Positions 9,190 through 27,025 of a DNA stretch of 64,000 nt are shown here, in pieces. Within the stretch, counting starts at the first letter, position 1; each line of letters begins with the position of its first letter. The position numbers were made by a program, and so were the translations under genes. This DNA is from Silanimonas sp. GTDB taxonomy: Bacteria > Pseudomonadota > Gammaproteobacteria > Xanthomonadales > Xanthomonadaceae. The notes below the pieces were generated by a model, which made no database searches, had not been told where the DNA came from, and saw only the letters and a program-made list of their open reading frames with translations. Where the stretch lies: assembly GCA_018334015.1 (NCBI GenBank), contig JAGXTI010000020.1:80347-144346 (forward strand), in the 5' to 3' direction.

Positions 9190-9287
9190 GGCGAGCGGCT
9201 CGGACTCGGTCGGCGAAGACCGGCATTCTAGCCCGGCATGGCGCGTGGGGCCGCCGCCCACGAAGCACTGAGCCGGGTTGAACCGGT

Positions 9288-10238: not shown

Positions 10239-10253
10239 GGTGGGAGGGCCGCC

Positions 10254-10955: not shown

Positions 10956-10999
10956 GCCCCGATTGTGCCCGCCCCGCGCCGGCCCGGCGAGCCTTGGGC

Positions 11000-11584
11000 T
11001 CAGCGCGCCGCCAGCTCGCGGTTGAACTCGGCCTCGATGCGGATCTCGACCTCGGTGCCCACCGCCGGGGCGTACTTGCCCATGCCGAAGGCGGTGCGGT
11101 CGATCGTGGTGGTGGCCGAGAAGCCCGCCACCTCGATGTTGGGACGGAACGGATGCGTGGCGACACGATTGAGGCGGGTGTCGAGCACCACCGGCCGGGT
11201 GGTGCCGAGCAGGCTGAGATCGCCGGTGACCTTGAGCCGGCCCTCGCCCAGATCCTCGACCCGGGTGCTGCGGAAGGTCATGGCCGGGTGCTGGGCGACA
11301 TTGAAGAAATCGGCCGAGCGCAGGTGCTCGTCGAAATCCGGCTGGTCGGTGTCGATGCTGGCGGTGTCGATGCTGACCTCGATCGAGGAACGGCTCAGGT
11401 CTTCGCGGTCGAGCTTGAGCGTACCGTCGAAGCGCAGGAACTCGCCCAGGGTCTTGGCGAAACCGAGGTGGTCGATGGCGAAGCCGATGTAGGTGTGGCT
11501 GGCGTCAAACTTGAAGGCGTCGGCGGCCAATGCCGGCGTGGTGAAGCCGGTCGCGAGCGCAAAAGCGAGCAGGGTTTTCTTCAT
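11000..11584 (-). CDS. YceI-family periplasmic lipid-binding protein
   Basis: A 194-residue secreted protein with a signal peptide (residues 1-21, MKKTLLAFALATGFTTPALA before ADAF). The mature part has the YceI lipocalin-like pattern: FKFDASHTYIGFAIDHLG, SIEVSIDTASIDTDQPDFDEHLRSADFF, ATHPFRPN and TAFGMGKYAPAVGTEVEIRIEAE. Family members bind polyisoprenoid-type lipids in a beta-barrel in the periplasm. Length and domain coverage are normal. The start at 11584 has a GGAGC ribosome site and begins the signal peptide; the longer open frame to 11803 runs into the nitroreductase gene. A role in isoprenoid quinone handling or stress is known for some relatives but not shown here. Confidence 0.92.
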   Translation of the reverse strand: MKKTLLAFALATGFTTPALAADAFKFDASHTYIGFAIDHLGFAKTLGEFLRFDGTLKLDREDLSRSSIEVSIDTASIDTDQPDFDEHLRSADFFNVAQHPAMTFRSTRVEDLGEGRLKVTGDLSLLGTTRPVVLDTRLNRVATHPFRPNIEVAGFSATTTIDRTAFGMGKYAPAVGTEVEIRIEAEFNRELAAR

Positions 11585-11642
11585 GGCGGTGCTCCGGTCG
11601 GGCGGCGGCACGGCCGGTGGCCGTGCTCGGGGAAGGGCAAGA

Positions 11643-12233
11643 TCAGGCGATCCGCGCGGCCTCGTCGAAGGCCAGCCGCGGCGAGCGCGGGAACAGGCCC
11701 GCCGGATCACCGTAGCCCAGGTTGATGAGGAAATTCGAGCGGATGCGGGTGCCGGCAAAGAAATCGGCATCGACCCGGGCGGCATCGAAACCGGACATGG
11801 CACCGGTGTCGAGGCCGAGCGCGCGCGCCGCGAGGATCAGGTAGGCCCCCTGCAGCGAGGCGTTGCGGAAGGCCGTGCTCTCGATCAGCGCGTCGTTGCC
11901 GACGAACCAGCTGCGCGCATCGGCGTGCGGGAACAGCTTCGGCAGCGTGTCGGGGAAGGCCAGGTCCTGGCCGACGATGACGGTGACCGGAGCGGCCATG
12001 GTCTTCTCGACATTGCCCGGCGCCAGCGCCGCCTTCAGCTTGGCCTTGGCCTCGGCCGACTTGACGAACACGAAGCGCGCCGGCGAGCAATTGGCGCTGG
12101 TCGGTGCCCACTTCAGCAGATCGTAGAGCTGGTGCAGCAGGGCATCGGGCACGTCCTTGGCCTGCCAGGCGTTGTGGGTGCGGGCGCTGCGGAAGAGCTG
12201 GTCGAGGGTGGTGGCATCGAGAGCGTGGTGCAT
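11643..12233 (-). CDS. malonic semialdehyde reductase RutE-like nitroreductase
   Basis: A 196-residue FMN-dependent nitroreductase. It matches E. coli RutE (also 196 residues) in many blocks: [81 protein letters not shown] and [10 protein letters not shown]. RutE reduces malonic semialdehyde to 3-hydroxypropionate in pyrimidine breakdown. No other rut genes are nearby, so the in vivo role may be general aldehyde or quinone reduction. The start at 12233 gives the family length. An upstream in-frame ATG at 12341 adds unrelated sequence and is rejected. It is divergent from the ELM1-like gene, with 119 bases between the starts. Confidence 0.87.
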
Positions 12234-12352
12234 GGTGGGACTCCGGTCGCGGGAAACGAGGCTCAGTATCGCGACCAGCCCTCGCGGGGCCATGCCCTGC
12301 AACGCAACACCCCGTTGTGAGCCGGGCAACGACCGGGCCACACTGCCGAACC

Positions 12353-13375
12353 ATGCCCAGCCCCCTGCCCGCCGACTTGCCCGCCGTGCTGCTGCTCCAC
12401 GACGGTGCCGCCGGCAACCAGCGGCAGGTCAGCGCGCTGGCCGGGGCGCTCGGCCTGCCGGCCACCGAGTTGCCGCTGCTTGCCCGTCGGCCCTGGGCCT
12501 GGGCCGCACCTCGGCGCTGGCCGGGCAGTCGCCTGGCCTTCGGAGCGGCCTTCGCTGCCTTGCTCGACACGCCCCCGGCGCTGGCCTTTGGCTGCGGCCG
12601 CCAGGCGGCCCTGGCCACCCGGCTGCTGCGCGAACGTGGCACGCGGGTGGTGCAGGTGCTCGACCCGCGACTGCCGCCGCGGCATTGGGATCTGCTGGTG
12701 GCCCCGCACCACGACGGCCTCTGCGCCGCCAATGTGCTGAACCTGCACGGCAGCCTCCACCCGGTCGATACCGCCTGGCTGGTGGCAACCCGCGCGGCCT
12801 GGCCGCTGGGAGGCGCGGCAGCGGCACCGCGCCGGGCCTTGCTGGTCGGCGCGCCGACCCGCGCCTGCCGCTGGGACGCCACGAGCCTCGACGCCGCCCT
12901 TGACCGCCTGCGCGAGGCCCAGAGCCGCGAGGGCGGCACCGTCTGGGCGACCGCCTCGCGGCGCACCCCGCCGGAACTGGTGGCTCTGTTGCGGCAGCGA
13001 CTGGCCGGCTGGGGCCAGGTCTGGGCGGCGACCAGCGACGGCCCCAACCCCTACCCCGGCTGGCTGGCCTGGGCCGATGCCCTGGTGGTCACGCCGGATT
13101 CCGCCAACCTGCTGAGCGAAGCCGCCGCCACCGCGGCACCGCTGTGGATCATCGCGCCGGAGCAGGCCGGTGGACGACTGCGCGGCCTGATCGACCAACT
13201 GCTGAGCAGCGGCCGGGCGCGGCCGCTGGCGGCCCTGCTGCCGCCCTGGCCGGTGCAGCCCTGGAACGAAACCGCGCGACTGGCGGCGGCACTGGCGACG
13301 CGGCTGGGGCTTCAGCCGCCCGAAGGCAGCGCCGCCCACGCTGCCGCGATCGCGGCGGCGGCCTCCTCGACCTGA
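12353..13375 (+). CDS. ELM1-like (mitochondrial fission ELM1 family) protein
   Basis: A 340-residue protein of the bacterial ELM1/DUF1022 family. Visible blocks are [21 protein letters not shown] at the N-terminus, [53 protein letters not shown] and [18 protein letters not shown] near the C-terminus. The fold resembles GT-B glycosyltransferases, with the last block in the nucleotide-sugar site position, so the bacterial proteins may be glycosyltransferases. Function is unproven. The ATG at 12353 is the first in-frame start outside the divergent gene's region. Its last 64 bases overlap, tail to tail, the 3' end of glnE. Confidence 0.8.
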
Positions 13376-16107
13376 GGCAGGTCGCGCGGCACGCGCCGCG
13401 GCCGGCGGTCCAGGGTGCAGCCGAGGCTGGCCTCGACCAGGGCGGCGTGGGCCCGCCGCAGCCGCTCGGCCGTCGAGGCATCGAGCACGCCGGCACGGGC
13501 GAGCGCCTGCAGCAGGGCGTGGCTGTGGCGCGGCGCGCACAGCGCCGGGTGGCTTGCGGCATGGCGCAGCACGGCGTGCTGCAGCAGGAACTCCAGATCG
13601 ACCAACCCGCCCTCGCCCTGCTTGAGGTCGAAACGCGCCGGGTCGCTGCGGTCGTGCTCGCGGCGCATCCGTTCGCGCATCGTCCGCACTTCGCCACACA
13701 GGATGGCGGGATCACGCGGGCGACCGAGGACCTCGCCGCGCAGGGCATCGAGGCGCGCCAGCAGGGCGGCATCGCCGGCCAGCGGGCGCATCCGCACCAG
13801 GGCCTGGTGCTCCCAGGTCCAGGCGCGCTCGCGCTGGTAGCCGGCGAAGCTCTCGAAGTTGACGACCAGCAGGCCCTTGGCACCGTCCGGGCGCAGCCGC
13901 ACATCGACCTCGTAGAGTTTGCCGGCGGCGGTCGCGGTGTCGAGCAGGGCAACCAGCTTCTGGGCAAGGCGCAGGTACCAGCGGCCGGCGTCCAGCGGCC
14001 GGGCACCGTCGGACTGCGCCTGCGGGTCGGCGCCGTGGACGAACACCAGGTCGAGATCGGAGGCGAAGCCCAGCTCCTGCGCACCGATGCTGCCGTAGCC
14101 CAGCACCGCGAAGCCGCCCTCCGGCAGCCGGCCATGCAGGCGCTCGACCTCGCCGATGGCAAGCGGCAGCACGGCCCGCAGTACCGCCTCGGCGACCGCG
14201 GCCAGGGCCTGCGTCGCCGCCACCGCATCGAGCCGGCCAGCCCGCCAGGCCAACCCGATCCGGAAGGCCAGGCTGTGGCGGTGCTCGACCAGAGCCTGCA
14301 AGGCCGACTCGGTGTCGAGCTCGGCGGCGGCCAGCGCGGCGATGCCGCTGGCGATGCCGGCCGGTTCGGGCAAAGGGCCGGCGGCACGCACATCGAGCAA
14401 CTCATCGAGCAGCAGGGGTTGCTCGGTCAGCCGTTCGGCGAGCAGCGCGCTGCCGGCGCAGACCTCGGCCAGACGCTCCAGCGCCGCCGGTTGTTCGGCC
14501 AGCAGGGCGAAGTAACTGCTGCGCCGGCCCACCGCGTTGAGCAGGGCGATGGCGCGGGCCAGGCTGGCGTCCGGGGCGGCGCTGGCGGCCGCTCGCGCCA
14601 CCAGCGCCGGCACGATCCGGTCGAGCCAACCGGCGGCACGCGGCGAAAGGCCGCGCCGCAGGGCCGAAGCCGCCAAGCGGCGCAGGCTGTCGTGCGCGCC
14701 TTCGGCGTCGCTGAAACCGGCTTCGGCCAGCACACGGGCCTCGCCACCCTCGGGCAACACGGCCCAGTGCGCACTCAGCGCGGCGATCCTGCCCTCGTCC
14801 GCCGTGCCCGACCGTGCTGACCCTGTGCCCGGCCCGGGGCCCAACACGGCGGCAAACTCGGCCGCCACCACCTCGCGATGCCCGCGCAGGGTCGCGTCGA
14901 GGGCTGCCGCATCGGCGAAACCCAAACCCCGCGCGATGCGCAAACGATCGAGCGGATCGGTTGGCAGGGCGTACTCCTGAGCATCGCGCAGCATCTGCAC
15001 GCGGTTCTCGACCCGGCGCAGGAAGCGGTAAGCGTCGGCCAGCCGCTCGGCCGTGGCTTCGGGCAGATGGCCCGCTGCGGCCAGCGCCGAGAGGGCGGGC
15101 AGCAGGCCGGTCTGGCGCAGGCCGGGTTCACGGCCGGCACGGATCAACTGCAGGGCCTGCACCAGGAATTCGACTTCGCGGATACCACCGGGGCCGCGCT
15201 TGAGGTCGTCGGCCAGATCGCGACGCGCGACCTCGGCTTCGATCATCGCCTTCATCGCCCGCAGCGAATCGAGCGCGGTGAAATCGAGGTAACGCCGGTA
15301 GACGAAGGGCTGCAGCCCCTCCAGAAACGCCGCACCAGCGGCGAGCTCACCGGCCACCGGCCGCGCCTTCAGCCAGGCGTAGCGCTCCCAGTCGCGGCCC
15401 TCGCGCTGGAAATAGGCCTCCATGGCCGCGAAGGACCAGGCCAGTCGGCCGCTGTCGCCGAAAGGGCGCAGGCGCAGATCGACGCGATGGCTGAAACCGT
15501 CGACGGTCGGCTCGCCCAGCAGTTGCGCGAGGCGCTGGCCCAGGCGCACGAAGTAGGGCTCGGCTTCGAGCGGGCGCGGGCCGTCGCTGGTGCCGTTGCC
15601 GGCGTAGGCGTAGACGAGGTCGATGTCGGAACTGAAGTTGAGCTCGCACCCTCCCAACTTGCCGAGCGCGAACACCACGAGGCGATGGGGTCGGCCCTCG
15701 GCATCGATGACGCGACCGAAGCGCGGAGTGAACTCGGCCTCGGCCTGCGCCAGAGCGAGTTGCAGGGCGGTCTCGGCGATGCCGGTGCTGCCGGCCAGGG
15801 TCGCCTCCACCGCATCGAGACCATCGACATCGCGGGCGACCAGCACCATCGAGGCGGCGGCCCGCCAGCGCCGCAACCGGCCCATGGCGGCCTCGGGCGC
15901 TGCCGGATCGAGCACCGGCGGGGCCGGCGGCGTGTGGCGTTGCGCCAGCCGTTCCGGCTGTCGGCGCAGCACCTCGAGAGCGAAATCGGAGGCCACCGCC
16001 AGCGGCACGAGCGCGGCGCGAAGGCCGGCATCGAGCGGCCGCACGGCTTCGAGCGCGTCCAGACGACGCTCGACCAGCAGGCCCAAGGCGGCATCGGCGT
16101 TCTGCAC
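13312..16107 (-). CDS. glnE: bifunctional glutamine synthetase adenylyltransferase/adenylyl-removing enzyme
   Basis: A 931-residue GlnE protein (E. coli: 946) that adds and removes AMP on glutamine synthetase in response to PII, tuning nitrogen assimilation in the cytoplasm. Two nucleotidyltransferase domains are clear: the N-terminal deadenylylase core has LGGCELNFSSDIDLVYAY at about residues 151-168, and the C-terminal adenylylase core has GSIGAQELGFASDLDLVFVHG at about 670-690. Both keep the paired acidic residues. The start is a GTG at 16107 in the family context. The C-terminus overlaps the convergent ELM1-like gene by 64 bases. A strong terminator upstream (16135-16165) separates it from the S9 peptidase, so it should have its own promoter in the short gap. 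Confidence 0.95.
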   Translation of the reverse strand: MQNADAALGLLVERRLDALEAVRPLDAGLRAALVPLAVASDFALEVLRRQPERLAQRHTPPAPPVLDPAAPEAAMGRLRRWRAAASMVLVARDVDGLDAVEATLAGSTGIAETALQLALAQAEAEFTPRFGRVIDAEGRPHRLVVFALGKLGGCELNFSSDIDLVYAYAGNGTSDGPRPLEAEPYFVRLGQRLAQLLGEPTVDGFSHRVDLRLRPFGDSGRLAWSFAAMEAYFQREGRDWERYAWLKARPVAGELAAGAAFLEGLQPFVYRRYLDFTALDSLRAMKAMIEAEVARRDLADDLKRGPGGIREVEFLVQALQLIRAGREPGLRQTGLLPALSALAAAGHLPEATAERLADAYRFLRRVENRVQMLRDAQEYALPTDPLDRLRIARGLGFADAAALDATLRGHREVVAAEFAAVLGPGPGTGSARSGTADEGRIAALSAHWAVLPEGGEARVLAEAGFSDAEGAHDSLRRLAASALRRGLSPRAAGWLDRIVPALVARAAASAAPDASLARAIALLNAVGRRSSYFALLAEQPAALERLAEVCAGSALLAERLTEQPLLLDELLDVRAAGPLPEPAGIASGIAALAAAELDTESALQALVEHRHSLAFRIGLAWRAGRLDAVAATQALAAVAEAVLRAVLPLAIGEVERLHGRLPEGGFAVLGYGSIGAQELGFASDLDLVFVHGADPQAQSDGARPLDAGRWYLRLAQKLVALLDTATAAGKLYEVDVRLRPDGAKGLLVVNFESFAGYQRERAWTWEHQALVRMRPLAGDAALLARLDALRGEVLGRPRDPAILCGEVRTMRERMRREHDRSDPARFDLKQGEGGLVDLEFLLQHAVLRHAASHPALCAPRHSHALLQALARAGVLDASTAERLRRAHAALVEASLGCTLDRRPRRVPRDLPQVEEAAAAIAAAWAALPSGG

Positions 16108-16199: not shown

Positions 16200-18269
16200 T
16201 TACGGCGTCTGGCGCGGCGCGTTGTGCTCCTGGAACCAGCGATAGACCTGCTGGTACCAGAACACCGAGTTCTGCGGCCGCAGGATCCAGTGGTTCTCGT
16301 TCGGGAAGTAGATGAAACGGGTCGGCACGCCCTTCATCAGCAAGGTCTGGTAGAGCTCTTTGGCGTGGTTGACCGGCACCCGGTAGTCGAGCTGGCCGTG
16401 GATCACGAGGGTCGGCGTGTCGAAGTTGGCGGCATGGTAGTGCGGCGAGATCCGCTGCAGCATCTCGCGGTTCTGCGGCTCCCAGAAACCGCCGAAGCGC
16501 GGGATCTCGGTGGCGAAATCGGCACCGTACTGGGTGTAGAGGTTGTAGACCTTGGCGTGCGCCACCAGCGCCCGGAACGGGTGCTCGCGACCGAGGATGA
16601 TGGTGGCGAGGTAGCCGCCGTAGCTGCCGCCGCCGGCGACCATGCGGTCACGGTCGATCCAGGGCTGCTGGGCGAACCACTCGGCGGCCTTGATGATGTC
16701 CTCGTAGGGCTTGTCGGCCCAGTTCGGGTTGATCGAATCGGTGAAGGCCTGGCCGAAACCCGAGCTGCCGTGGAAGTTCGACCATGCGGTGACGTAACCC
16801 CAGCTGCCGAAGACCTGGGCGTTCCAGCGGAAGGCCATGCCGTTGGTGATGGCGTTGTGCGGGCCGCCATGGATCAGCTTGAACAGCGGGTAGCGCTTGC
16901 TGGGGTCGAAGCCCGGCGGGTAGTTGACCCACATCTGGATCGGCTGGCCGTTGGCACCGGTGTAGGTGACCGACTCGAAGGTGCCGAAATCGGTGTTGGC
17001 GAGCAGCTCGTCGTTGATGGTCGAGAGCTTGGTGGTGGTGCCGTTGCGGGTGTTGACGCGGACCAGCGTGGGCGGCTCGATGAAAGTCTGGCGCAGGCCG
17101 ACCAGGGTGCCGTTGCCGGCCAGCGCGAGGTTGGCGACCGAGGCGGCCTCGCCGGTGACATCGCGCGGGTTGCCGTTGATCGGCAGCTCGTAGACGCGCA
17201 CCGTGCCGGCGCTGTCGATCGCGCCCCAGAGACGGCGGCTGTCATTGCCCCAGACCAGGCCGTTGGCGCTGCGGTCCCAGTCGGTGAACTGCTCGGTGAT
17301 GCTGCCGTTGCGGCGGTCCTTCAGCATCACCCGCTCCTTGTCGGCGTAGAAGCCGCGGATGCGCTGCTGGACGAAGGCCAGGTAGCGGCCGTCCGGGCTG
17401 TAGAGCGGGTTGCCGTCGCCGGCCTGGTTGGCCTCGGTGTGGTTGGTGGCCTCACGGCCGCCCACCGGCACGGTGAAAACGTCGTTGTTGGTGAAGTTCG
17501 CCGCCGGGTTGGAATCGGCGACGAAGGCCAGCTCGCGGCCGTCCGGCGAGATCGCGAACAGCGAATCGGTGCCCTGCACCGCGTTGCGCGGCAGTTCGAG
17601 ACCGGTCGGCTGGGTCAGCGGCTGGACATCGCCACCGGCGAAGGGCACGGCGAAGACATGGAACTCGCGCTCATCGACGAACTGGTCCCAGGCGGTGACC
17701 GGGGCACGGTCCCAGACGCGGGCGGTCATCTTGCTCTCGGCGCGCTCCTCGAGCCGCTTGCCCTGCTCGGCCAGCGGCAGGTCGTCGAACACCCGCGAGA
17801 CGAAGGCCAGACGCGAGCCGTCGGCGAACCACTTCGGGCTCTGCACGCCGGTGGCCAGGTTGGTGAGGCGGCGCGCTTCGCCACCATCGACGGCGATGAC
17901 GTAGAGCTGCGGGGCCTTGTCGTTCTCGCGCTGGGCGATGAAGGCAATGAAGCGACCGTCCGGGCTGAACACCGGCGAGCTGTCGTTGCTGGCATGGGTG
18001 GTGAAGGCGCGCTGGCCGCTGCCGTCGGCGTTCCAGATCCAGAGGTCGGTGAAGCCGCGGTCCTGCTCCATGTCGAAGCGGGTGACCGGGGCGACGATGC
18101 GCGAGCCATCCGGCGAAATGGTCGGTTGGCCGATGCGCTGGATCTGCCAGCTGCGTTCGATGGTGAAGGGCTGCTTGCCCGTGGTGGCGGGCGTGGCGGC
18201 CGCGGTGGATTGCGCGGCCAGCGGGGCGCAGGCCGCGAGCAGGGCGAGGGCGAGGACGGAGCGGATCAT
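16200..18269 (-). CDS. exported S9 family peptidase (acylaminoacyl/dipeptidyl peptidase type)
   Basis: A 689-residue prolyl-oligopeptidase-family serine peptidase with a signal peptide (MIRSVLALALLAACAPLAAQ). The N-terminal half is a beta-propeller with repeated SPDG motifs (TISPDGSRI, FSPDGRFIAF, SPDGRELAF, YSPDGRYLAF). The C-terminal alpha/beta hydrolase holds the catalytic triad: Ser in GGGSYGGY (about residue 548), Asp in IHGQLDYRVPV (about 626) and His in PNENHWIL (about 658). It trims short peptides in the periplasm or outside the cell. The start at 18269 has a GGAG site; the longer frame adds 17 residues before the signal peptide. The gene lies 51 bases downstream of an AbgT transporter on the same strand, suggesting linked peptide breakdown and uptake. 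Confidence 0.92.
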   Translation of the reverse strand: MIRSVLALALLAACAPLAAQSTAAATPATTGKQPFTIERSWQIQRIGQPTISPDGSRIVAPVTRFDMEQDRGFTDLWIWNADGSGQRAFTTHASNDSSPVFSPDGRFIAFIAQRENDKAPQLYVIAVDGGEARRLTNLATGVQSPKWFADGSRLAFVSRVFDDLPLAEQGKRLEERAESKMTARVWDRAPVTAWDQFVDEREFHVFAVPFAGGDVQPLTQPTGLELPRNAVQGTDSLFAISPDGRELAFVADSNPAANFTNNDVFTVPVGGREATNHTEANQAGDGNPLYSPDGRYLAFVQQRIRGFYADKERVMLKDRRNGSITEQFTDWDRSANGLVWGNDSRRLWGAIDSAGTVRVYELPINGNPRDVTGEAASVANLALAGNGTLVGLRQTFIEPPTLVRVNTRNGTTTKLSTINDELLANTDFGTFESVTYTGANGQPIQMWVNYPPGFDPSKRYPLFKLIHGGPHNAITNGMAFRWNAQVFGSWGYVTAWSNFHGSSGFGQAFTDSINPNWADKPYEDIIKAAEWFAQQPWIDRDRMVAGGGSYGGYLATIILGREHPFRALVAHAKVYNLYTQYGADFATEIPRFGGFWEPQNREMLQRISPHYHAANFDTPTLVIHGQLDYRVPVNHAKELYQTLLMKGVPTRFIYFPNENHWILRPQNSVFWYQQVYRWFQEHNAPRQTP

Positions 18270-18320
18270 CGGGACTCCAGAGGTTGGGCGGTGGGACGGA
18301 GGGAACGGGAAAACCGGCAC

Positions 18321-19850
18321 TCAGAAACCGAGCGGAATGCCGAACAGGAAGAACACCATCAGCAGCAGCGTCCAGGACACGAGGAAGCACAGCGAGTAGG
18401 GCACCATCATCAGGATCTGGTCGCCGATGGTGAGGTCGGGCCGGTAGCGGCGCATGAAAGCCAACACGATACCGGCATAGGCCATCATCGGTGTCACGAT
18501 GTTGGTCGAGGAATCGGCCACGCGGTAGGCGGCCGCGACCAGGTCCGGGGTCAGTTGCGGGTTCACGTGGTAGAGCATCGGCACGAAGATCGGCCCGAGC
18601 AGCAGCCACTTCGAGGTCAGCCCGCCGACGAACAGGTTGATGAGGGCGGTGGTCAGGATGAAACCGATCAGCAGCAGCATCGGGTTGTCGGCAAGACCGA
18701 GGCCCAGCAAGCCCTGCGCGCCGAGGTGGGTGATGTAAGCACCAAGGCCGCTGTAGGTCAGCAGGCCGAGGAAATTGTAGGAGAAGAAGGTCAGCACCAG
18801 GATGTAGCCGGTGGTGTTGGCCTGCTTCGTCATCGCCTCGACCACATCGACGAGCCGGCTGAACTTGCCGCTGGCGAAGCCGAAAGCCATGCCGACCGCG
18901 ACGAAGTAGAACGAGATCAGCAGGATCACGTTGTTGAGGAAGGGATGCACCTCGCGGCCGTCCGGGCCGGTGAACGAGGCAAGCGGCCCCAGCGCGAAGC
19001 CCGCGATCACCAGCAAGGCCAGCGGCGTGGTCCAGGCGGCTGCCCGCAGACCGCGGCGCTCGGCGGCGTTCAGTTCGAATTCGCCGAAATCGAGGTCGGC
19101 GGGCTTGGTCCAGGGCTGCGCGGCGAGCCGCGGTGCGACAAAGCGCTTCGTCACCCAGGCGCCGACCACGGTCAGCAGCAGGGTCGAGGCGACCATGAAG
19201 AAATAGTTCATCGTCGCTGCGTTCAGGGGCACGCCTTCGGCATTGGCGAAAGGCACGCCTTGGGCCTCGGCGAAGATCTTGGCGTTCAAACCCACAATCA
19301 CATCGGGCGGCGTGGCCGGGATCAGGTTGGCGCTGAAACCGGCCGAGACCCCGGCGAAGGCGGCGGCCATGCCGATCAGCGGGTTGTGGCCGAGTGCGGC
19401 ATAGAGCAGGCCGGCCAGCGGGATCAGCACGAGGTAGCCGGCGTCGGTGGCCAGCGAACTCATGATGCCGAGGAAGACCAGCAGCAGCGGCATCCAGCGC
19501 ATCGGCACCTTGCGGCCGGCTTTCTTGATGAGCGCACCCAGCAGCCCGGCATGCTCGGCCACGCCGATCGCCAGCGTGACCACCAGGATCACGCCCAGCA
19601 CGCCGTTGCCGAAACCCAGCCAGTTGGCCAGCAGGGCGTTGTCGAAAATCCAGCGGATGTTCTCGCCCTCGAGCATCGAGCGCACGCTCTGCTCGACCGG
19701 CCCGGCCGGCCCCTGCGAAACGAAGGTGGTGCCGCCGAGCAGGGCCGTTGCCGCCAACGCGATCAGGTAGAAGCCGATGAACAGCAGCACCGGGTCGGGG
19801 ATCGAGCGGGCGATGCGTTCGACGAGGGAGGCGGGACGGGGCTGGTTCAC
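18321..19850 (-). CDS. AbgT-family transporter
   Basis: A 509-residue inner-membrane protein with about 11-13 hydrophobic segments and AbgT-family blocks: IPDPVLLFIGFYLIAL, IGVAEHAGLLGALIKKAGRKVP, MSSLATDAGYLVLIPLAGLLYA, AGFSANLIPATPPDV, NTTGYILVLTFFSYNFLGLL and VADSSTNIVTPMMAYAGIVLAF. Family members import p-aminobenzoyl-glutamate or export sulfonamides using the proton gradient. Its partner here is an exported peptidase, not an aminobenzoyl-glutamate hydrolase, so a peptide-derived substrate is possible. The start is a GTG at 19850. It is divergent from the porin gene (194 bases apart) and probably shares a transcript with the S9 peptidase, ending at the terminator near 16150. Confidence 0.92.
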   Translation of the reverse strand: MNQPRPASLVERIARSIPDPVLLFIGFYLIALAATALLGGTTFVSQGPAGPVEQSVRSMLEGENIRWIFDNALLANWLGFGNGVLGVILVVTLAIGVAEHAGLLGALIKKAGRKVPMRWMPLLLVFLGIMSSLATDAGYLVLIPLAGLLYAALGHNPLIGMAAAFAGVSAGFSANLIPATPPDVIVGLNAKIFAEAQGVPFANAEGVPLNAATMNYFFMVASTLLLTVVGAWVTKRFVAPRLAAQPWTKPADLDFGEFELNAAERRGLRAAAWTTPLALLVIAGFALGPLASFTGPDGREVHPFLNNVILLISFYFVAVGMAFGFASGKFSRLVDVVEAMTKQANTTGYILVLTFFSYNFLGLLTYSGLGAYITHLGAQGLLGLGLADNPMLLLIGFILTTALINLFVGGLTSKWLLLGPIFVPMLYHVNPQLTPDLVAAAYRVADSSTNIVTPMMAYAGIVLAFMRRYRPDLTIGDQILMMVPYSLCFLVSWTLLLMVFFLFGIPLGF

Positions 19851-20044
19851 AGGACGATGACGGCAAGCAAAGAGCTTGAACGTGCCCCGCCGCGTGTGAA
19901 GATCAAGCCAAGGCCGGAGGCCGCCCGGCAGGCTGGTGCAACACCCAGCCTGAACAGAACCCTGCGCAAAGGCAGCCTCGGGCGCGGATCAGCGTTAAAA
20001 ATCCTTCACAATCCGCCCCCGTTTTCACTGCCGAGGAGTCGTCC

Positions 20045-20725
20045 ATGACCCGCAAGACCCTGCTCGTTGGCGCACTGATCGCCATCCTGCCGACCGCCGC
20101 CCTCGCCGAGGGCTTCAGCTGGAACGCCACCCTGGCCTCCGACTACATCTACCGCGGCATCGACCAGAACGATGACCAGCCGGCCCTGCAGCTCGGCGCC
20201 GACTTCGGCTTCGCCAATGGCTTCTACGTCGGTGCCTGGGGCTCGAACGTCGACTTCGGCGACAGCACCAACATCGAGATCGACACCTACGTGGGCTGGG
20301 CCGGTGCCCTCGGTGACAGCAGCACCCTCGACGTCAAGCTGACCCGCTACAACTACCTGAACGAACCGACCGGCGTTGACTACGCCTACAACGAGCTGAT
20401 CACCACGGTCGGTCTGGGCGAGACCTACAGCTTCACCCTGGCCTACACCAACGATTACCTCAACGCCGACCTTGACAGCGTCTACGCTGGCGTGGCCGGA
20501 AGCTGGGCGCTCAACCAGACCTACACGCTGAACGCCAACGCCGGTTGGACCAGCATCGCCGGTCCGCTGGAGAACTACTTCGACTACGGCATCTCGCTGA
20601 GCCGCAGCTTCGGTCCGGCCACCGTCTCGCTGGGCTACGTGGCGAGCAGCAGTGGCGCCGAATCCAACTTCGGCCGCGACGCCGCCGAAGACAAGGTGCT
20701 GCTCACCATCGGCTTCGGCGGCTGA
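20045..20725 (+). CDS. TorF-family putative outer membrane porin
   Basis: A 226-residue secreted beta-barrel protein. The signal peptide spans residues 1-21 (ending ALAEG). The mature part has the TorF/TIGR02001 start FSWNATLASDYIYRGI, alternating amphipathic strands, and a C-terminal strand ending KVLLTIGFGG. The family is common in gammaproteobacteria; a role as a small porin is predicted, with no known substrate. A GAGGAG ribosome site sits 8 bases before the ATG. The gene stands alone, with its own terminator downstream (20743-20794) and the AbgT gene diverging upstream. Codon choice is strongly biased toward C-ending codons, consistent with high expression. Confidence 0.88.
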   Translation: MTRKTLLVGALIAILPTAALAEGFSWNATLASDYIYRGIDQNDDQPALQLGADFGFANGFYVGAWGSNVDFGDSTNIEIDTYVGWAGALGDSSTLDVKLTRYNYLNEPTGVDYAYNELITTVGLGETYSFTLAYTNDYLNADLDSVYAGVAGSWALNQTYTLNANAGWTSIAGPLENYFDYGISLSRSFGPATVSLGYVASSSGAESNFGRDAAEDKVLLTIGFGG

Positions 20726-20742
20726 TTCCGCTCGCCTTCGAC

Positions 20743-20794
20743 CACAACCCCCGTCGGTCGCCCCATAGGGCGCTCGGCGGGGGTTGTGTGTTTT
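20743..20794 (+). terminator. terminator after the TorF-type porin
   Basis: A long hairpin with ten-base arms (CACAACCCCC and GGGGGTTGTG), extended by partly paired inner bases around an ATAG loop, is followed by TGTTTT. It also lies between the porin and the convergent ABC exporter operon, so it may work in both directions. Confidence 0.8.
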
Positions 20795-20806
20795 ATGAAG
20801 CGGCCC

Positions 20807-21508
20807 TCAGGCGGCTCCGCAATCTGGCACGGCGGGCAACAAGCGGCCGTCGTGCATCCGCAGGGTCCGGTCGGCCACCCGGGACAGCGCCTCGTCATGC
20901 GTGACCATCACCACCGTGGTGCCCTGCTGGCGGAGTGCCCGCAGGATCCCGACTACATCGGCACCGGTGGCGGAGTCCAGGTTGCCCGTCGGCTCGTCGG
21001 CGAAGATGATCGGCGGCCGGGCGACCACGGCCCGTGCGATGGCGACGCGTTGCTGCTGCCCCCCGGACAACTGGCTGGGATGGTGATCGGCCCTGTGGTC
21101 CAGACCGACCCCCTCCAGCGCCTCCAGAGCGCGTCGCTGGCACGCCTGGACACCGCCGGGCATGCCTGCGAAGCGCAGGGGCAGAAGCACGTTATCGAGG
21201 GCGGTCAATTCGCCGATCAGGTTGAAGGTCTGGAAGACGAAGCCCATTTGCGTGGCACGGACCTGCGCGCGCTGCGAAGCAGTGAACGTTCGGGTCGGGC
21301 GATCGAGGAAGAACAATTCGCCATCGGTGGGGAGATCGAGCAGACCCATGATGTAGAGAAGCGTCGACTTGCCCGAGCCCGACTTGCCCAGGATCGAAAC
21401 GAACTCGCCCCGGGCGATCTCCAGTGAAACCTCCTGGAGGGCATGGGTGTGCACATGCCGGGCCTCGAACACCCGGCCGACGTTCTCCAGGCGGATGATG
21501 GAGTTCAT
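20807..21508 (-). CDS. ABC transporter ATP-binding subunit (LolD/MacB type)
   Basis: A 233-residue ATPase with every ABC motif: Walker A GKSGSGKST (residues 41-49), Q-loop FQTFNL, signature LSGGQQQ (148-154), Walker B IIFADEP (168-174) and the H-loop Thr-His-Asp-Glu. The spacing and the MGLLDLPT block put it in the MacB/LolD/YbbA group, which powers FtsX-type permeases moving lipids, peptides or proteins across the periplasm instead of importing solutes. It is the last gene of a five-gene minus-strand operon; its ATG overlaps the stop of the HlyD-type adaptor (ATGA). It should energise the permease encoded at 22737-24914. Base composition (low 60s % GC) is slightly below the neighbourhood. 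Confidence 0.93.
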   Translation of the reverse strand: MNSIIRLENVGRVFEARHVHTHALQEVSLEIARGEFVSILGKSGSGKSTLLYIMGLLDLPTDGELFFLDRPTRTFTASQRAQVRATQMGFVFQTFNLIGELTALDNVLLPLRFAGMPGGVQACQRRALEALEGVGLDHRADHHPSQLSGGQQQRVAIARAVVARPPIIFADEPTGNLDSATGADVVGILRALRQQGTTVVMVTHDEALSRVADRTLRMHDGRLLPAVPDCGAA

Positions 21509-22731
21509 GGCGTAGTGCCCTCGACCGGATCAAGGACGAGCAGAAGCCGCTCGCCCTGCACGGCACCGGATCGGACGACGATGCGATCTCCCAGCCTTGC
21601 TCCGAGCACGATGTCGCGAGTCTCACCCTGCGCACCCTGCGAAACAGCCACCATACGAACCCGTTGGCCCGGCCTGATCCCGGGCTGGTAGGGAATCGAG
21701 AGCGTCCCATCCTCGGCCCGGGCGCGGAGAGTGGCGCGCAGGCTCGTCTGGTCGGCAAAGGCCCCGAGCTTCGAAAGATCGTCTTCGATGGCGATCTCGA
21801 CGGACCGGAAGCCCTGATCCACCACCGGGTTCACCCGCGCCACGCTGCCACCGAGCACTTCCGAGCCCACGTCCAGACGGGCGGGTGTTCCGACACCGAT
21901 CATGGGCGCGAGGTCTTCGGGCACCCGGACCAGGGCGATGAATCCCTTGGGCTCGATCACCCGTCCGATCTTCGTCCCGGCCACGAGGGCCTGACCCACT
22001 TCCAGTTCCAGGGCACTCAGCACCCCCGCAACCGGTGCGGTAATCGTCAACCGCGATGACAGGTAACGCAGGCGCTCCAGACTGTCCTCGGCACTCCGTC
22101 GCGCCTCCGCCTCCACTGCGACGCGGGCGTTCCGCAGGCGCTCTCCGGTCGCCAAGCGCAACTGCGCGGCCCGGTGGTCGGCTTTGGCCATCTCCAGTCT
22201 CGCCAGCGACTCCTCGAGCGACAGGCGTGAAATGACCCCTTTCTCGAACGATGCCCTGCGCGCCGCGTGTTCCGATTCCGCGAAACGCAGCGCCGCCTTG
22301 GAACGGGCGAACGCCGCCTGCTCATCGACCGCCTGGGCTTCGGCGGTGGCTTCGGCCACCGTGTGCTGCGCCTCGGCTTGGAGAAACCAGGAACGTGCCG
22401 CTTCCGCATCGGCCAACAGCCGCTCGTTGGCGAGGACGGCAATGCGCTGTCCCTTGGCAACACGATCTCCGGGTGATGCTGAAATGGTCCGGACGGTACC
22501 GTCCACTTCCAGCGCCAACACCACCACGCTCCGGGGCTGGAGCGAGCCCAGGGCCTCGATCGGGAAATCGATGGCTTGCCGCTCCACGACCAGTTCCACA
22601 CGGCGCTCGGGCTCGTCCCCCCGCAGGAGCAACCAGCCCAGCATGGCCGCGACGGCCAACAGGATGGCGACGGCGATGATCCACCGGCGGTGATCCATCG
22701 CGAAATGACGCCGGGGCTTCGGCACATCCAT
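21505..22731 (-). CDS. HlyD/MacA-type periplasmic adaptor
   Basis: A 408-residue membrane-fusion protein. One N-terminal transmembrane segment (about residues 17-36, WIIAVAILLAVAAMLGWLLL) is followed by a biotinyl-lipoyl-like domain (SVVVLALEVDGTVRTISASPGDRVAKG), a long coiled-coil hairpin (about residues 95-235, rich in Ala, Glu and Arg), the returning lipoyl half (TITAPVAGVLSALELEVGQALVAGT) and beta-barrel regions (VRVPEDLAPMIGVGTPARLDV). Such proteins bridge an inner-membrane exporter and a TolC channel. The ATG at 22731 has a GAGGA site that overlaps the end of the permease gene, five bases upstream. A second ATG twelve residues on is a possible alternative. It completes a tripartite exporter with the genes on either side. 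Confidence 0.92.
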   Translation of the reverse strand: MDVPKPRRHFAMDHRRWIIAVAILLAVAAMLGWLLLRGDEPERRVELVVERQAIDFPIEALGSLQPRSVVVLALEVDGTVRTISASPGDRVAKGQRIAVLANERLLADAEAARSWFLQAEAQHTVAEATAEAQAVDEQAAFARSKAALRFAESEHAARRASFEKGVISRLSLEESLARLEMAKADHRAAQLRLATGERLRNARVAVEAEARRSAEDSLERLRYLSSRLTITAPVAGVLSALELEVGQALVAGTKIGRVIEPKGFIALVRVPEDLAPMIGVGTPARLDVGSEVLGGSVARVNPVVDQGFRSVEIAIEDDLSKLGAFADQTSLRATLRARAEDGTLSIPYQPGIRPGQRVRMVAVSQGAQGETRDIVLGARLGDRIVVRSGAVQGERLLLVLDPVEGTTP

Positions 22732-22736
22732 CCGTT

Positions 22737-24914
22737 TCAGTCCTCTCGAAGCAGCGAAGCCAGGGGCAGGCGTCCGACCATCCAAAGACACGACGCGAAC
22801 ACGCCGAGGAAAGCAGCAAGTGCGACCAAGGGCAACACCAGCAATGCCTCGGCAAAAGCCTGGGTATCGGCCCGCGGCAAAGCCGCCTCGATGCCACTCC
22901 GTGCGGCCAGGGCAAGCAGCACCCCCAGCAAGGATCCCGTGCCGATCCAGACCAGCGACTGGCCCGCCATCCGCCATGCTGCGGCTCTTGGTCTTTCACC
23001 GATCGCCAAGCGGATGGCCAGAACACGGCGCGCGAAACGGGCGTATGCGGTGGCGATCATCACACTGGCCACACCGAGCACGGTCATCCCGACCAGAAGC
23101 AAGGCAAGCGCCGCATCCCTGAGCAGCAGCAGGTTCCGCCGCTGGGCATCGATCACATCGACAACCCGCAAGGGACGAGAAAGACGGTATTCCCGCAGGC
23201 TGTCGCCGATCCGCAGCGCCTGATCCCTCGCGCCAAGAGCCCCACTGCTGCGGAACACGATGCTCGCTGTGGATCCCTGGCAACCGCCAGTATCAAGAGC
23301 GCGGAACATCACGAAACGCAATTCCGGGGCCGATGCTCCCACACGAAAGCCCGAGAACAGACCGACCGGATCCGAGATCATCTCGGCAACCCGGCGATTT
23401 GCCGGCACCAAGGCCTGCACGAGACTGACCCGAGCGTTGCCCATATCGGCCAGACTGAAATCCCTTCCATCGAGCCGCAAACCCAGGACCTGCGCGATCC
23501 CCGCCGTTGCGAGAAACATCGTACCGCTGGCTCCTTCGGCTGCCGGCATCCGGCCGTCCATCCAGGGCTCGCTGCAAATCATCGCGGCTCCAGCCTCGGC
23601 CCTCTCCAAACGCTCCGCGACGGAGCGTGCATGACCCGGCAAGCCGGTGGCTCCAGCCGTCGGTGCGGCGCGCACCACCCAGAGCTGGTCCGCCTGATAA
23701 CCAAGGTAGAGTCCACGCAAAGCCCGCAGTTCCGCGGTGGCAAGCCAGGCGAAGGAGGAAAACGGACCGATCAAGGCGATCATGCCCGCAAGCGAGGCTC
23801 CCGCCAGCCTGGCGTTCCAGATCCCCTGCGTGGCGGTGGTCCGCAGCGCCAGCCGCGAGTCGATCCGCCAGAGTCCGACGACGAAGAAGCCGAGAAGAAA
23901 AGCAGCCAGACCGGCAACGAACAGAAGCAGTGCGTAAGCCAGGGCAAGGGCAGCGGATTGCGGGGTGGTGCTCCATCCGATCCAGCAGGCGACCGCGACC
24001 AAGCCGAGCAGTGCCGGCAGCAGTGCGCTCGCCGCTCGACGCAGATACCGAAAGCCGATGAAGCCGAGCGAAGCACCGAGTGCCCGTTGAATCTCCATCT
24101 CCCGCAGGCTTGTCGCCGCGAGGAAAATACCGAACGCGAACAGGACGCCGACCTTGAGCGAGGCGACCATCGGGCGCAAGCGCTCAATCCAGGCCAAGCG
24201 ACCCTCAAGATGCCGAGCAAGCCTGGCCGACAGGGTTTCAGCCTCGAACAGGGATCGGCCGAATACCGAATCGGCCAGTGCCAGATCCTGCAAGCGCTCC
24301 TGCACCCGGCGAAACGTCGCTCCCGAATCGGCCAAGGCGGGCACGACCACGACCTCGGTCGAATCGAACCACTCACCACCGGTGCAAACCAGCAGGACCG
24401 GGGCAGCCTCGGTTCCGGCCAGTTCCCGGATCAATGCCGCCTGCGGTGCCGGTCTCACCAGTAAGCCAAGATCCCCGTGACGGACGATGCCCACCGGCGG
24501 GGCGTTCCCCACCCAGTAACCGATATCCGGATTGCATTCCGAACTCCGGGACAGGAATTCGCCCAGTCGCCTGGACACCTCGAGCAAGGCGACACGCTCA
24601 ACGCTGCCATCAGGCAGTGCGACATGGGCGGCGCTCCGGCGCACCGAGCCCACCGCACTGGTGTCCGCCGCATCGGCCAGTACCTTGCGCACCGTCGAAA
24701 AATCAAGCGTTCGGGGAACCACGATCCGCTCGCCCAGGGCACCATCCAGCGCGACCGAACGGCTGAGCGTGAAAACACCGCGTTCATGCAGGGCATCGAC
24801 CACGTGCTGGTAGCGGGCGGTGACCGCTTGGGCGATCGAAAGCAGCACGGCCAGAAGCAGCAGGGTGGCCGCCGCCGCCAACCAGCGCCAATCCAACCGG
24901 AGGCTCTGCAGCAT
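22737..24914 (-). CDS. FtsX-type permease with two fused modules
   Basis: A 725-residue inner-membrane permease. An N-terminal membrane helix (residues 10-30) is followed by a large periplasmic domain (about 35-245). A first set of helices starts at SLKVGVLFAFGIFLAATSL and carries the coupling motif EIQRALGAS. A second periplasmic domain (about 395-585) precedes a second set (ALALLLVGMTVLGVASVMI onward) with the matching motif AIRLAIGERPRA. Two FtsX modules in one chain would give a complete permease without dimerisation. Both periplasmic domains contain cysteines (SSECNPD, LLVCTGG, MICSEP, GGCQGS). It lies seven bases after the CxxC-protein gene and five before the adaptor. It probably moves the secreted peptide, or hands it to the TolC route, but the substrate is inferred from the operon only. 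Confidence 0.85.
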   Translation of the reverse strand: MLQSLRLDWRWLAAAATLLLLAVLLSIAQAVTARYQHVVDALHERGVFTLSRSVALDGALGERIVVPRTLDFSTVRKVLADAADTSAVGSVRRSAAHVALPDGSVERVALLEVSRRLGEFLSRSSECNPDIGYWVGNAPPVGIVRHGDLGLLVRPAPQAALIRELAGTEAAPVLLVCTGGEWFDSTEVVVVPALADSGATFRRVQERLQDLALADSVFGRSLFEAETLSARLARHLEGRLAWIERLRPMVASLKVGVLFAFGIFLAATSLREMEIQRALGASLGFIGFRYLRRAASALLPALLGLVAVACWIGWSTTPQSAALALAYALLLFVAGLAAFLLGFFVVGLWRIDSRLALRTTATQGIWNARLAGASLAGMIALIGPFSSFAWLATAELRALRGLYLGYQADQLWVVRAAPTAGATGLPGHARSVAERLERAEAGAAMICSEPWMDGRMPAAEGASGTMFLATAGIAQVLGLRLDGRDFSLADMGNARVSLVQALVPANRRVAEMISDPVGLFSGFRVGASAPELRFVMFRALDTGGCQGSTASIVFRSSGALGARDQALRIGDSLREYRLSRPLRVVDVIDAQRRNLLLLRDAALALLLVGMTVLGVASVMIATAYARFARRVLAIRLAIGERPRAAAWRMAGQSLVWIGTGSLLGVLLALAARSGIEAALPRADTQAFAEALLVLPLVALAAFLGVFASCLWMVGRLPLASLLRED

Positions 24915-24921
24915 GGAAGGC

Positions 24922-25416
24922 TTACTTGGGTTGCTGCGGCGCGGGCCCGGACGGCAGGATCACCGTATAGATCGACGCATCGATGGCCGGCCTTGACTCC
25001 AACCCTCCGGTAAGCGCCTGCCGGAAGTCGGCGCAGCTTCGACAAAAATCCTCCCGCATCGTTACCAGGATGACGCGCTCCCGCAGAGGCTTGTCGGCAT
25101 CGTGATCCTGCGACCCGGGAAATTCGGCCGAGCGACGGATCGCACAAGCCTCGACCCCGGCAGCCAGAGCCGCGTCCACGGCCGGCCACAGGTCTGCAGC
25201 AGCCGTTTCCGGGGGCGTCAGTACACCCACGCAGCGGCCGTCGGTTGCGAAGACGAACACCTTGGGCAATACACCTCGCGGCCCCTGGTCGACGTACAAA
25301 GCCCTGTAGACCTCCAGCCGGATGTCGGCTTCGGTGAGGCGTTCGGCATGGGCCGACGACATGCCGAAGGCCGCAGCAAGAACCAGCAGGAAAGCGGACA
25401 GGCGATTGATCGGCAT
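24922..25416 (-). CDS. exported CxxC protein of unknown function, exporter-linked
   Basis: A 164-residue protein with a signal peptide (MPINRLSAFLLVLAAAFG, cleavage near SAHA). The mature part has four cysteines: Cys62 (DGRCVGVL), Cys91 (EACAIRR) and a CRSC pair at 125-128. The strand-then-CxxC arrangement (RVILVTMREDFCRSCADF) recalls the start of a thioredoxin-like active site, but the rest is not recognisable. The ATG at 25416 is chosen because it starts the signal peptide and follows an AGGATCAGAAG stretch. It sits 84 bases after the cysteine-rich peptide gene and seven before the permease, so it belongs to the exporter operon. A role as thiol oxidoreductase, chaperone or substrate adaptor for the peptide is an inference. 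Confidence 0.7.
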   Translation of the reverse strand: MPINRLSAFLLVLAAAFGMSSAHAERLTEADIRLEVYRALYVDQGPRGVLPKVFVFATDGRCVGVLTPPETAAADLWPAVDAALAAGVEACAIRRSAEFPGSQDHDADKPLRERVILVTMREDFCRSCADFRQALTGGLESRPAIDASIYTVILPSGPAPQQPK

Positions 25417-25500
25417 TCTTCTGATCCTAAAAAGTTCAAAACCCTGACTTTGGACGGCCAGAAGTGATCCCAACACACCTTCCATCAAAATGACCTTACA

Positions 25501-25671
25501 TCAAAGGACTACGCAGCTGCCATCACTCCCACAGCGGACGCAAAAGTTACTATTGCAATGATAGCAGACAGTCTCGTCGCAAATGCTAACCCACTCAGAA
25601 GCAGCAACTAAGCCAGGCAAAATAAAGGCAACTGAGAAAACAACATAAGCAGCCAATTTGTTCTTTTTCAT
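25501..25671 (-). CDS. secreted six-cysteine micropeptide
   Basis: A 56-residue precursor, preceded by a good GAGGT ribosome site six bases before its ATG. The N-terminus is a classical signal peptide (MKKNK, hydrophobic core, cleavage predicted after LVAA at about residue 24). The mature 32 residues contain six cysteines (31, 36, 39, 44, 47, 53) spaced C-x4-C-x2-C-x4-C-x2-C-x5-C, two of them as CxxC pairs, with few charges. The gene is about 43% GC in a region near 65-70%, a sign of separate origin. It is first in an operon with a CxxC protein and an FtsX/HlyD/ABC exporter. It may be a disulfide-bonded secreted peptide (toxin, signal or bacteriocin-like) or a metal-binding one. No known family was recognised. 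Confidence 0.7.
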   Translation of the reverse strand: MKKNKLAAYVVFSVAFILPGLVAASEWVSICDETVCYHCNSNFCVRCGSDGSCVVL

Positions 25672-25769
25672 ATTGACCTCTTCAGTGAAGGATTGGTGAA
25701 TGAACAGAAGATGAAGCATCACAACCCTGCACTAGGCGGTGTCATGAAAATGTGAATGATATCAGCTGG

Positions 25770-25800
25770 TTGACCGTAGTCTCGTTGCAGAGACTATAGA
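25770..25800 (+). promoter_or_regulatory. MerR-type promoter with internal operator dyad, driving the BLUF gene
   Basis: A TTGACC -35 box (25770-25775) and a TATAGA -10 box (25795-25800) are separated by 19 bases, longer than the usual 17. The spacer is filled by the dyad TAGTCTC-N6-GAGACTA (25777-25796). This layout is the hallmark of promoters controlled by MerR-family activators, which untwist an over-long spacer. The boxes point to the BLUF gene 87 bases downstream. No MerR-type regulator gene is visible in the window. Confidence 0.62.
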
Positions 25801-25886
25801 ACGCACACGCCGCACTCACGCGATGCTCAGCCTAACTTGACCAGCCAAGCTCGATACTGTGTGTTGTCTTGCAATAAGCGCCCTCC

Positions 25887-26414
25887 ATGACCCTGTTCCG
25901 TCTCGTCTACGCCAGCCGCGCCGCCGACGCCCTGACACCGAGCGACCACGACCAGATCCTCGTCAGTTCGCGGCGCAACAACGGCAAGGCCGGCGTCACC
26001 GGGTTGCTGGCCTTCAGTGCCCGCGAGTTCCTGCAATGTCTCGAAGGCTCGCGCGAGGCGGTCAGCACCACCTACGGCCGCATCCTTGCCGATCCCCGCC
26101 ATCAGGATGTGCAGCTGATCGATTGCCGTGCGGCCGATGTGCGCTGGTTCGGCGAATGGGGCATGCACGGTCTGCCGCCCTCCAAACTGACGCGGCAACG
26201 TGTGTTGCGCTACAGCGAGCGCGAACTGTTCACCCCCACGCGGATGAGCAGCGGCAACGTGCTGGCCCTGCTCGCCGATCTTGCCCAGGAGCTCGACGCC
26301 GAGCAGAAAGCCACGGCACCGCTGGAACCCGCCGTCACCAGCAGCATCCGGCCGAGTTCCGAGGCACCGCGCGAGGGCCTGTTGGCGAAGATCGGGCTGA
26401 AGCGCGAGAACTGA
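25887..26414 (+). CDS. BLUF-domain blue-light sensor protein
   Basis: A 175-residue short BLUF protein. The N-terminal flavin-binding domain has the photocycle tyrosine (RLVYAS, Tyr8), the flavin-contacting asparagine region RRNNGKAGVTGLL (Asn31/32), the key glutamine in EFLQCLEGS (Gln50) and the Trp/Met pair in FGEWGMHG (Trp91, Met93). Blue light shifts hydrogen bonds around FAD and signals through the C-terminal helices (about residues 110-175, variable here, with no enzymatic output domain). Short BLUF proteins often act by binding a partner; E. coli BluF antagonises the MerR-type repressor BluR. The MerR-like promoter upstream (25770-25800) makes a similar pairing attractive but unproven. 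The ATG at 25887 begins the family block. Confidence 0.93.
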   Translation: MTLFRLVYASRAADALTPSDHDQILVSSRRNNGKAGVTGLLAFSAREFLQCLEGSREAVSTTYGRILADPRHQDVQLIDCRAADVRWFGEWGMHGLPPSKLTRQRVLRYSERELFTPTRMSSGNVLALLADLAQELDAEQKATAPLEPAVTSSIRPSSEAPREGLLAKIGLKREN

Positions 26415-26419
26415 ACCGG

Positions 26420-27025
26420 TCAGCCCTGGTCGAGGGCGTGGTGGATCAACACCACGCACTGCGAGGCGAACAGCATCCGCGGGCCGAGTGAGAGCTTCGT
26501 TGCACCGAGACGCTCCAGGCTGCCGAAGGTCTTCTTCGGCATCGGGATGTGGTCGGTGAGCAGGAAGCAGGGTTGGTCGGCGAAGGTCTGCACACTGATC
26601 GGCGTGCCCTTGCGGTCGAGCACGAAGAGCTGATGGTCCACGGCCAACTGCTGCACCAGCCGCTCGAAACTGATCGTCTGCACCGTCACGCCGGGTTCAA
26701 CCGGTCGCGTTTCCTCCTTGCCCATGCCGCGCGAGGTGTCGAGTGCCTTCGCCACTTTCGCCAGCAACGCGCGCTCGTCGAAGCCCCCGAGTTCATGCAT
26801 GGCCCGCGGCTCGAAGCGCAACGTGCGCGAGTAATCCGCGGTGCTCTCCAGCACGAGGTATACGACGACATCATCGCGGTGCGACTGCGCGACGAAGATC
26901 GCGTTCATCAGCACATGGGCGAGGATCTCGGGGTGCGCATCGGTGCCGATCGAGGCCAGCAGCTTGCCGCTGTCGACGGGCGCGGCGCGGGCGCGGAGGA
27001 CGAAGGTGCGCATGGGTTCGATCAT
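26420..27025 (-). CDS. TrmY-like (DUF358) SPOUT RNA methyltransferase
   Basis: A 201-residue protein of the TrmY family. It starts MRTFVLRARAAPVDSGKLLASIG and shows TDAHPEILAHVLMNAIFVAQSHRDD, FERLVQQLAVDHQLFVLD and CFLLTDHIPMPKKT near the C-terminus, the expected SAM-binding knot region of SPOUT enzymes. In archaea TrmY methylates pseudouridine 54 of tRNA. Bacteria do not usually carry that modification, and the function of bacterial members is unclear. The ATG at 27025 follows a GAGA stretch; the ATG at 27013 is an alternative that starts directly at the family block. It ends five bases from the convergent BLUF gene. Downstream of the broken glycosyltransferase on the same strand, it is one of several transfer-prone genes here. 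Confidence 0.78.
   Translation of the reverse strand: MIEPMRTFVLRARAAPVDSGKLLASIGTDAHPEILAHVLMNAIFVAQSHRDDVVVYLVLESTADYSRTLRFEPRAMHELGGFDERALLAKVAKALDTSRGMGKEETRPVEPGVTVQTISFERLVQQLAVDHQLFVLDRKGTPISVQTFADQPCFLLTDHIPMPKKTFGSLERLGATKLSLGPRMLFASQCVVLIHHALDQG

Follow-up and report, generated by a model that had tools for sequence, protein, structure and literature searches.

The window examined here is a stretch of 64,000 nucleotides from Silanimonas sp. (assembly GCA_018334015.1, contig JAGXTI010000020.1, positions 80,347 to 144,346), and at 20807–25671 on its minus strand are five packed genes that code for a six-cysteine precursor peptide, a CxxC protein, a permease, a HlyD adaptor and an ABC ATPase. 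From comparison of the sequences we put at about even the chance that this operon is a small dedicated peptide-secretion system. The conserved unit, as judged from its relatives, is that of peptide, CxxC protein and permease; a linked ABC ATPase is found only in the window. The original prediction of a peptide with its own FtsX/HlyD/ABC exporter is thus borne out in one part, since the peptide–CxxC–permease order is kept in a second genus with conservation at the protein level, but the tie to the HlyD and ABC genes is a matter of their packing in the window alone.

The precursor gene lies at 25501–25671 (56 codons, with an ATG start and a TGA stop), with the sequence AGAGGT 5′ of its ATG. It is followed by the CxxC protein gene at 24922–25416 (164 residues from the chosen ATG, with a longer frame beginning at a TTG at 25488), a gene for a putative two-module FtsX/MacB-type permease at 22737–24914 (725 residues), a HlyD/MacA-type periplasmic adaptor gene at 21505–22731 (ATG at 22731, with an open frame reaching to 22977) and an ABC ATPase gene of the LolD/MacB/DarD type at 20807–21508 (233 residues), all on the minus strand. 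With these starts the genes are separated by 84, 7 and 5 bases and the last two overlap by 4 bases, in agreement with the packing described earlier.

The six-cysteine peptide

The precursor has what by eye is a Sec-like signal peptide and a mature part of about 32 residues, and the earlier description of 56 residues with six cysteines in the last 32 is confirmed. The spacing of the mature cysteines is C-x4-C-x2-C-x4-C-x2-C-x5-C. A homologue is present in Pseudomarimonas arenosa as a 61-residue open reading frame (ORF), all six cysteines of which align with those of the window peptide. The two precursors match by BLASTP at 41% over 49 positions (E 1e-8, a single comparison), and local alignment of the mature peptides gives a score of 81, which is reached by none of 5000 shuffles of all residues (maximum 59) and by none of 5000 with the cysteines held fixed (maximum 73). 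Among the 242 ORFs of 20–150 residues in the same 19 kb of P. arenosa, the homologue scores 93 and the runner-up 35.

Purifying selection on the codons of the small ORF had been set as a test, and the outcome is favorable. Across the 30 aligned mature codons the nucleotide identities at positions 1, 2 and 3 are.67,.67 and.33, and the same residue is present at 17 of the 30, with the codon also the same in six of these 17; by this comparison, which involves two sequences and no formal dN/dS, the pattern is one of protein-level selection. Because the P. arenosa homologue is at the same place and is conserved at the protein level, we take the small ORF to be a real gene. The alternative, that it is non-functional and that the exporter alone matters, could appeal to its short length and AT-richness, and to its not being detected in a second relative (the genome UBA5700, described below), but a homologue at the same place in another genus, conserved as a protein, leaves this very improbable.

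The peptide is rare, being present in two of 395 genomes of the family, the window genome included. A profile scan in which at most 16 candidates were scored per genome gave matches in 276 of the 395 genomes at E values up to 10; two of the matches listed are strong (5.8e-32 and 4.1e-36), and both are the sequences from which the profile was built. Five loci with weaker matches (L019, L020, L021, L025, L027) were inspected and judged to be chance, and the others were discarded by E value; at the match in genome G426 (3.9e-4) there is no peptide-like ORF among those listed at that place.

The putative exporter genes

For the permease, hydropathy picks out eight hydrophobic segments, arranged 1+3+1+3 with two long regions between, and although its AlphaFold2 (AF2) model is poor (pLDDT 44.4), the modelled helices follow the same layout. 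In Pfam it falls short of the FtsX threshold of 25.5 bits, scoring 15.1, and has no match to MacB_PCD, and NCBIfam gives no match at E values up to 1; the UBA5700 homologue does pass the FtsX threshold, with 27.4 bits. A profile search of the PDB at E up to 1 gives four matches, of which three are to MacB (E 0.0011–0.01) and the fourth is a chance match. We infer that the permease is a fused pair of MacB-type modules.

The adaptor is above the Pfam cut-offs for two HlyD families (PF13437, 50.5 bits; PF16576, 44.7 bits), and the ATPase falls within the LolD/MacB class of ABC proteins (PF00005, 109.9 bits with a cut-off of 25), its best NCBIfam matches being to DarD, LolD (two models) and MacB, all below the equivalog cut-offs. 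ATPases with 49–51% identity to that of the window are present at other loci too, and it may therefore be of a shared type. Four TolC-like ORFs were matched in the window genome, none of them inside the operon; one lies unlinked in the window at 1090–2574 on the plus strand and is a candidate for the exit duct.

The same genome has a second permease–HlyD–ABC set on another contig, whose adaptor and ATPase are 28% and 51% identical to those of the window, and which we count in favor of peptide export. It is part of a locus (L075, G000:C6:4000-19788, at 1908–15510) resembling a cluster for a ribosomally synthesized and post-translationally modified peptide. Its radical-SAM protein is closest to the cyclophane-forming maturases, at 199 of 445 bits, and is accompanied by a 2OG-Fe(II) oxygenase and a candidate for a short precursor; the transport genes there code for a permease resembling ADOP, an adaptor resembling DarC, an ABC ATPase and an ABC exporter of the peptidase type. 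All of the NCBIfam matches at this locus are below the cut-offs, and by eye there are transposase-like ORFs inside it.

The CxxC protein

The CxxC protein has a signal-like N-terminus by eye, and cysteines 62, 91, 125 and 128 are identical in all three aligned sequences, with two of them forming an FCxxC motif. It belongs to no Pfam family and has one NCBIfam match below the cut-off (12.7 of 33 bits). Its C-terminal half can be likened to the strand-CxxC-helix of thioredoxin: aligned by hhalign against 30 thioredoxins this half scores 25.4, compared with a mean of 12.3 (standard deviation 3.2, maximum 24.1, n=200) for shuffled sequences, and four of five PDB matches of the unrotated profile are to thioredoxin or thioredoxin-related proteins, with a best E value of 0.93.

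We also considered a circularly permuted thioredoxin, an idea that came from the order of the elements (Pro51, a strand pair and a helix, then strand-CxxC-helix). A rotated query matches thioredoxin or disulfide isomerase in 22 of its 23 PDB matches (21 of them named thioredoxin; best E 0.04), its hhalign score is 37.8 against 25.8 unrotated, and one of three rotated members matches thioredoxin-type Pfam models (E 0.096–0.24). The idea was dropped because the rotation and shuffling controls failed: the original alignment cut at 25 points gives a maximum of 28.4 and mostly about 25.4, 238 of 300 sequences with the N-terminal half shuffled attain the real rotated score, and the value of 37.8 is obtained solely with re-aligned rotated rows.

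Strong matches to the CxxC protein are found in three of the 395 family genomes, the window genome included. At E values up to 0.05 its profile matches 14 of the 395, of which the three below 1e-60 are members of the profile and the other 11 (E 0.015–0.048, partial) were discarded without inspection of their loci. Four of 321 genomes have matches at the class level at E up to 0.01, one being the window genome; the match in G571 (0.005) is by eye a thioredoxin-like secreted protein, and the remaining two were inspected and rejected. One of four genomes in the genus of P. arenosa and the one genome in that of UBA5700 have a match, in each case only the relative itself. A weak single-sequence match in G039 (8.3e-4) was not recovered by the profile search.

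Relatives of the operon and the conserved unit

Relatives of the permease and the CxxC protein were sought in the 395 family genomes and with two narrow patterns run over 84,980 species genomes. The pattern scan returned 48 stretches, two of which are relatives: P. arenosa CAU 1598 (L047), which is placed in the Lysobacteraceae in the NCBI taxonomy, a family to which kinship also assigns the window genome, and the Lysobacterales metagenome-assembled genome UBA5700 (L048). The permease is matched in five of the 395 family genomes, the window genome included, and in two of these (G288 and G020) through C-terminal parts only; in the seven other genomes of the window genus neither the permease nor the CxxC profile found a match. 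There were no matches among plasmids for the permease, the CxxC protein or the peptide, and 73 pattern matches among viral contigs included no relative.

In P. arenosa the peptide, CxxC protein and permease genes have the same order and strand as in the window, with gaps of 75 and 12 bases compared with 84 and 7 (using the chosen ATG starts). Directly upstream on the same strand are genes for an AcrB-type RND transporter (PF00873) and its HlyD-family adaptor (PF13437, PF16576), at L015 11997–16274 and 224 bases from the peptide; the downstream flank codes for an HD-domain protein and an alpha/beta hydrolase. UBA5700 has the order 130-residue hydrophobic protein, CxxC protein and permease, flanked by a Na/Ca exchanger and a homogentisate dioxygenase, and has no linked pump genes. 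The 130-residue protein (L009 10314–10706) has no Pfam or NCBIfam match, and its gene overlaps the longest CxxC ORF by 4 bases. A cysteine-rich ORF beside homologous permease and CxxC genes, which the original prediction called for, is thus present in P. arenosa but was not detected in UBA5700; homologous exporters do not consistently lack one and the idea survives, with support from one of two relatives.

Several of these observations weigh against a dedicated peptide-secretion system. Only two such peptides are known, and none was detected at the UBA5700 locus. The window ATPase has no tblastn match at E 0.01 within the 19 kb around the unit in either relative, and the window HlyD protein matches only the RND adaptor of P. 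arenosa in these same stretches; the RND pump could itself export the P. arenosa peptide. A genome of another genus, G288, has permease, HlyD and ABC genes in the window order (L016, G288:C1:645000-664000, at 6564–11422) with no match to the CxxC profile and no peptide-like ORF, and exporters of such a layout therefore also exist free of the peptide. The CxxC protein in its native order has no thioredoxin match in Pfam, and its AF2 model is of low confidence (pLDDT 51.7, pTM 0.40), which leaves its fold tentative. At the G288 locus the gene before the operon codes for a 150-residue protein that looks secreted and matches nothing in Pfam; a large RHS-like ORF is found further upstream.

The absence of a linked ABC ATPase from the conserved unit in both relatives is in keeping with the main rival explanation, in which the peptide would work together with the CxxC protein and the permease in the periplasm as a redox or metal module; the six cysteines, with two CxxC pairs, would bind zinc or copper or sense redox state, the permease would sense the peptide or move it within the envelope, and the HlyD and ABC genes would merely have been joined to it in the window. 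The only Pfam matches of the window peptide at E values up to 1 are likewise to zinc-binding models, both below their cut-offs (IBR, 17.6 bits of 24.3; FYVE_CARP1-2, 13.4 bits of 27); it has no NCBIfam match, and the peptide profile has a single PDB match at E 1.1. On the other hand, the 5-base gap and 4-base overlap bind the HlyD and ABC genes to the window permease, and the periplasm normally oxidizes cysteines of this kind. We regard such a module as unlikely, though worth keeping in view.

The neighboring RND pump bears on another explanation, that the permease, HlyD and ABC proteins are a self-protection or detoxification pump giving immunity, while the Sec-exported peptide leaves by another route, which in P. 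arenosa would perhaps be the AcrB-type pump and adaptor directly upstream on the same strand. FtsX-type pumps can confer resistance to peptides. Yet the P. arenosa permease stays with the peptide while having no linked ATPase, and Pfam and NCBIfam show no immunity family among the five operon proteins; we consider this explanation distinctly improbable.

Comparison with known systems

The operon shares features with several characterized systems. A review of MacB describes how MacAB-TolC of E. coli exports a Sec-translocated, Dsb-oxidized peptide from the periplasm, with MacB apparently not moving substrate across the inner membrane, and also notes MacAB homologues in some toxin biosynthesis operons (PMC5985334). 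The window operon resembles the system presented there in its ABC ATPase and HlyD/MacA-type adaptor, probably in a MacB-type permease, with TolC-like candidates encoded outside the operon, and presumably in a substrate that reaches the periplasm first by Sec and has disulfides (PMC5985334). It differs in that the ATPase is a separate gene, the permease is two-module, and a cysteine-rich peptide and a CxxC protein are encoded in the operon.

Pediocin PA-1 (pedABCD) provides a second parallel, since a single operon there holds the genes for a small cysteine-containing peptide, for a CxxC accessory protein that is secreted and for ABC export. PedC is a putative secreted CxxC oxidoreductase, a bacteriocin accessory whose co-production increases pediocin potency, and pediocin PA-1 itself has an immunity gene and an ABC transporter dedicated to it (PMC4919988). 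The window precursor by contrast has a Sec-like signal, and the operon has a MacAB-like pump and no recognized immunity gene.

As in darobactin DarBCD (NF038007, NF038008, NF038010), each of the three pump parts in the window (permease, adaptor, ATPase) has a gene of its own, but the matches are below the equivalog cut-offs (DarD 230.3 of 375 bits, DarC 32.7 of 450 bits, and no match to DarB), and the window peptide is cysteine-rich with a Sec-like signal. No maturase, radical-SAM proteins included, was found by Pfam or NCBIfam among the five operon proteins, or in a scan that outside the operon took in the BLUF and Gcw_chp neighbors. Lactococcin 972-type loci (TIGR03608) have a related ATPase (188.8 bits, below the cut-off of 254.85), whereas the window operon has in addition a periplasmic adaptor and a CxxC protein. 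Among the papers listed from an open-licence library on cysteine-rich peptides with MacAB/FtsX, disulfide bacteriocins of the Lysobacteraceae, or P. arenosa, none has a title or opening of the abstract that points to this operon.

Base composition and surroundings

The peptide gene had been described as far AT-richer than the rest of the operon, and its G+C content is indeed 0.446 compared with 0.653–0.673 in the other four genes, but 200-base windows with G+C of 0.42–0.51 extend over about 25400–25900 and include upstream non-coding DNA, so the AT-richness is not specific to the peptide codons. This AT-rich upstream region is flanked by a gene for a BLUF blue-light sensor (25887–26414, plus strand; PF04940, 95 bits) that is divergent from the peptide gene. 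There are no Rfam matches in 20000–26500, the gap between the peptide and CxxC genes has an RNA structure z score of 0.16, and promoter and terminator scans found 0 and 3, compared with 0.5 and 5.1 in shuffled sequences. A 1274-residue open frame on the plus strand at 16224–20048 is antisense to two long minus-strand ORFs (by eye peptidase-like and transporter-like) and is probably a high-GC shadow ORF.

A proposed route of export

If the operon is a dedicated peptide-secretion system, the precursor would cross the inner membrane by Sec, with cleavage of its signal, and the six cysteines would form three disulfides in the periplasm, where the co-encoded CxxC protein may act as an oxidase, isomerase or carrier for the peptide. 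The two-module permease and the LolD-like ATPase would form a MacB-type mechanotransmission pump; this would drive the peptide, once folded, out through the outer membrane by way of the HlyD adaptor and of a TolC whose gene lies outside the operon. The released peptide would most likely act on other cells, with a bacteriocin-like use somewhat likelier than signalling. Export, the disulfides and the role of the peptide, whether bacteriocin, signal or metal binder, are what we infer.

We regard the operon as a genuine and rare peptide locus of a recognizable kind, probably one of MacAB-like peptide export with a built-in redox-type partner. It is a little short of an even proposition that it represents an undescribed family of Sec-exported six-cysteine peptides in the Lysobacteraceae and their relatives, each peptide having its own CxxC partner in the periplasm and a two-module permease of the MacB type devoted to it, such that one operon would provide the whole route of Sec translocation, oxidation and outer-membrane expulsion. 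The best-known substrates of MacAB-like pumps are drugs, siderophores and toxins. If the proposal is correct, these operons would offer a clean system for studying how folded peptides are loaded from the periplasm, and their peptides would form a new family to be screened for activity against bacteria, in signalling or in metal binding.

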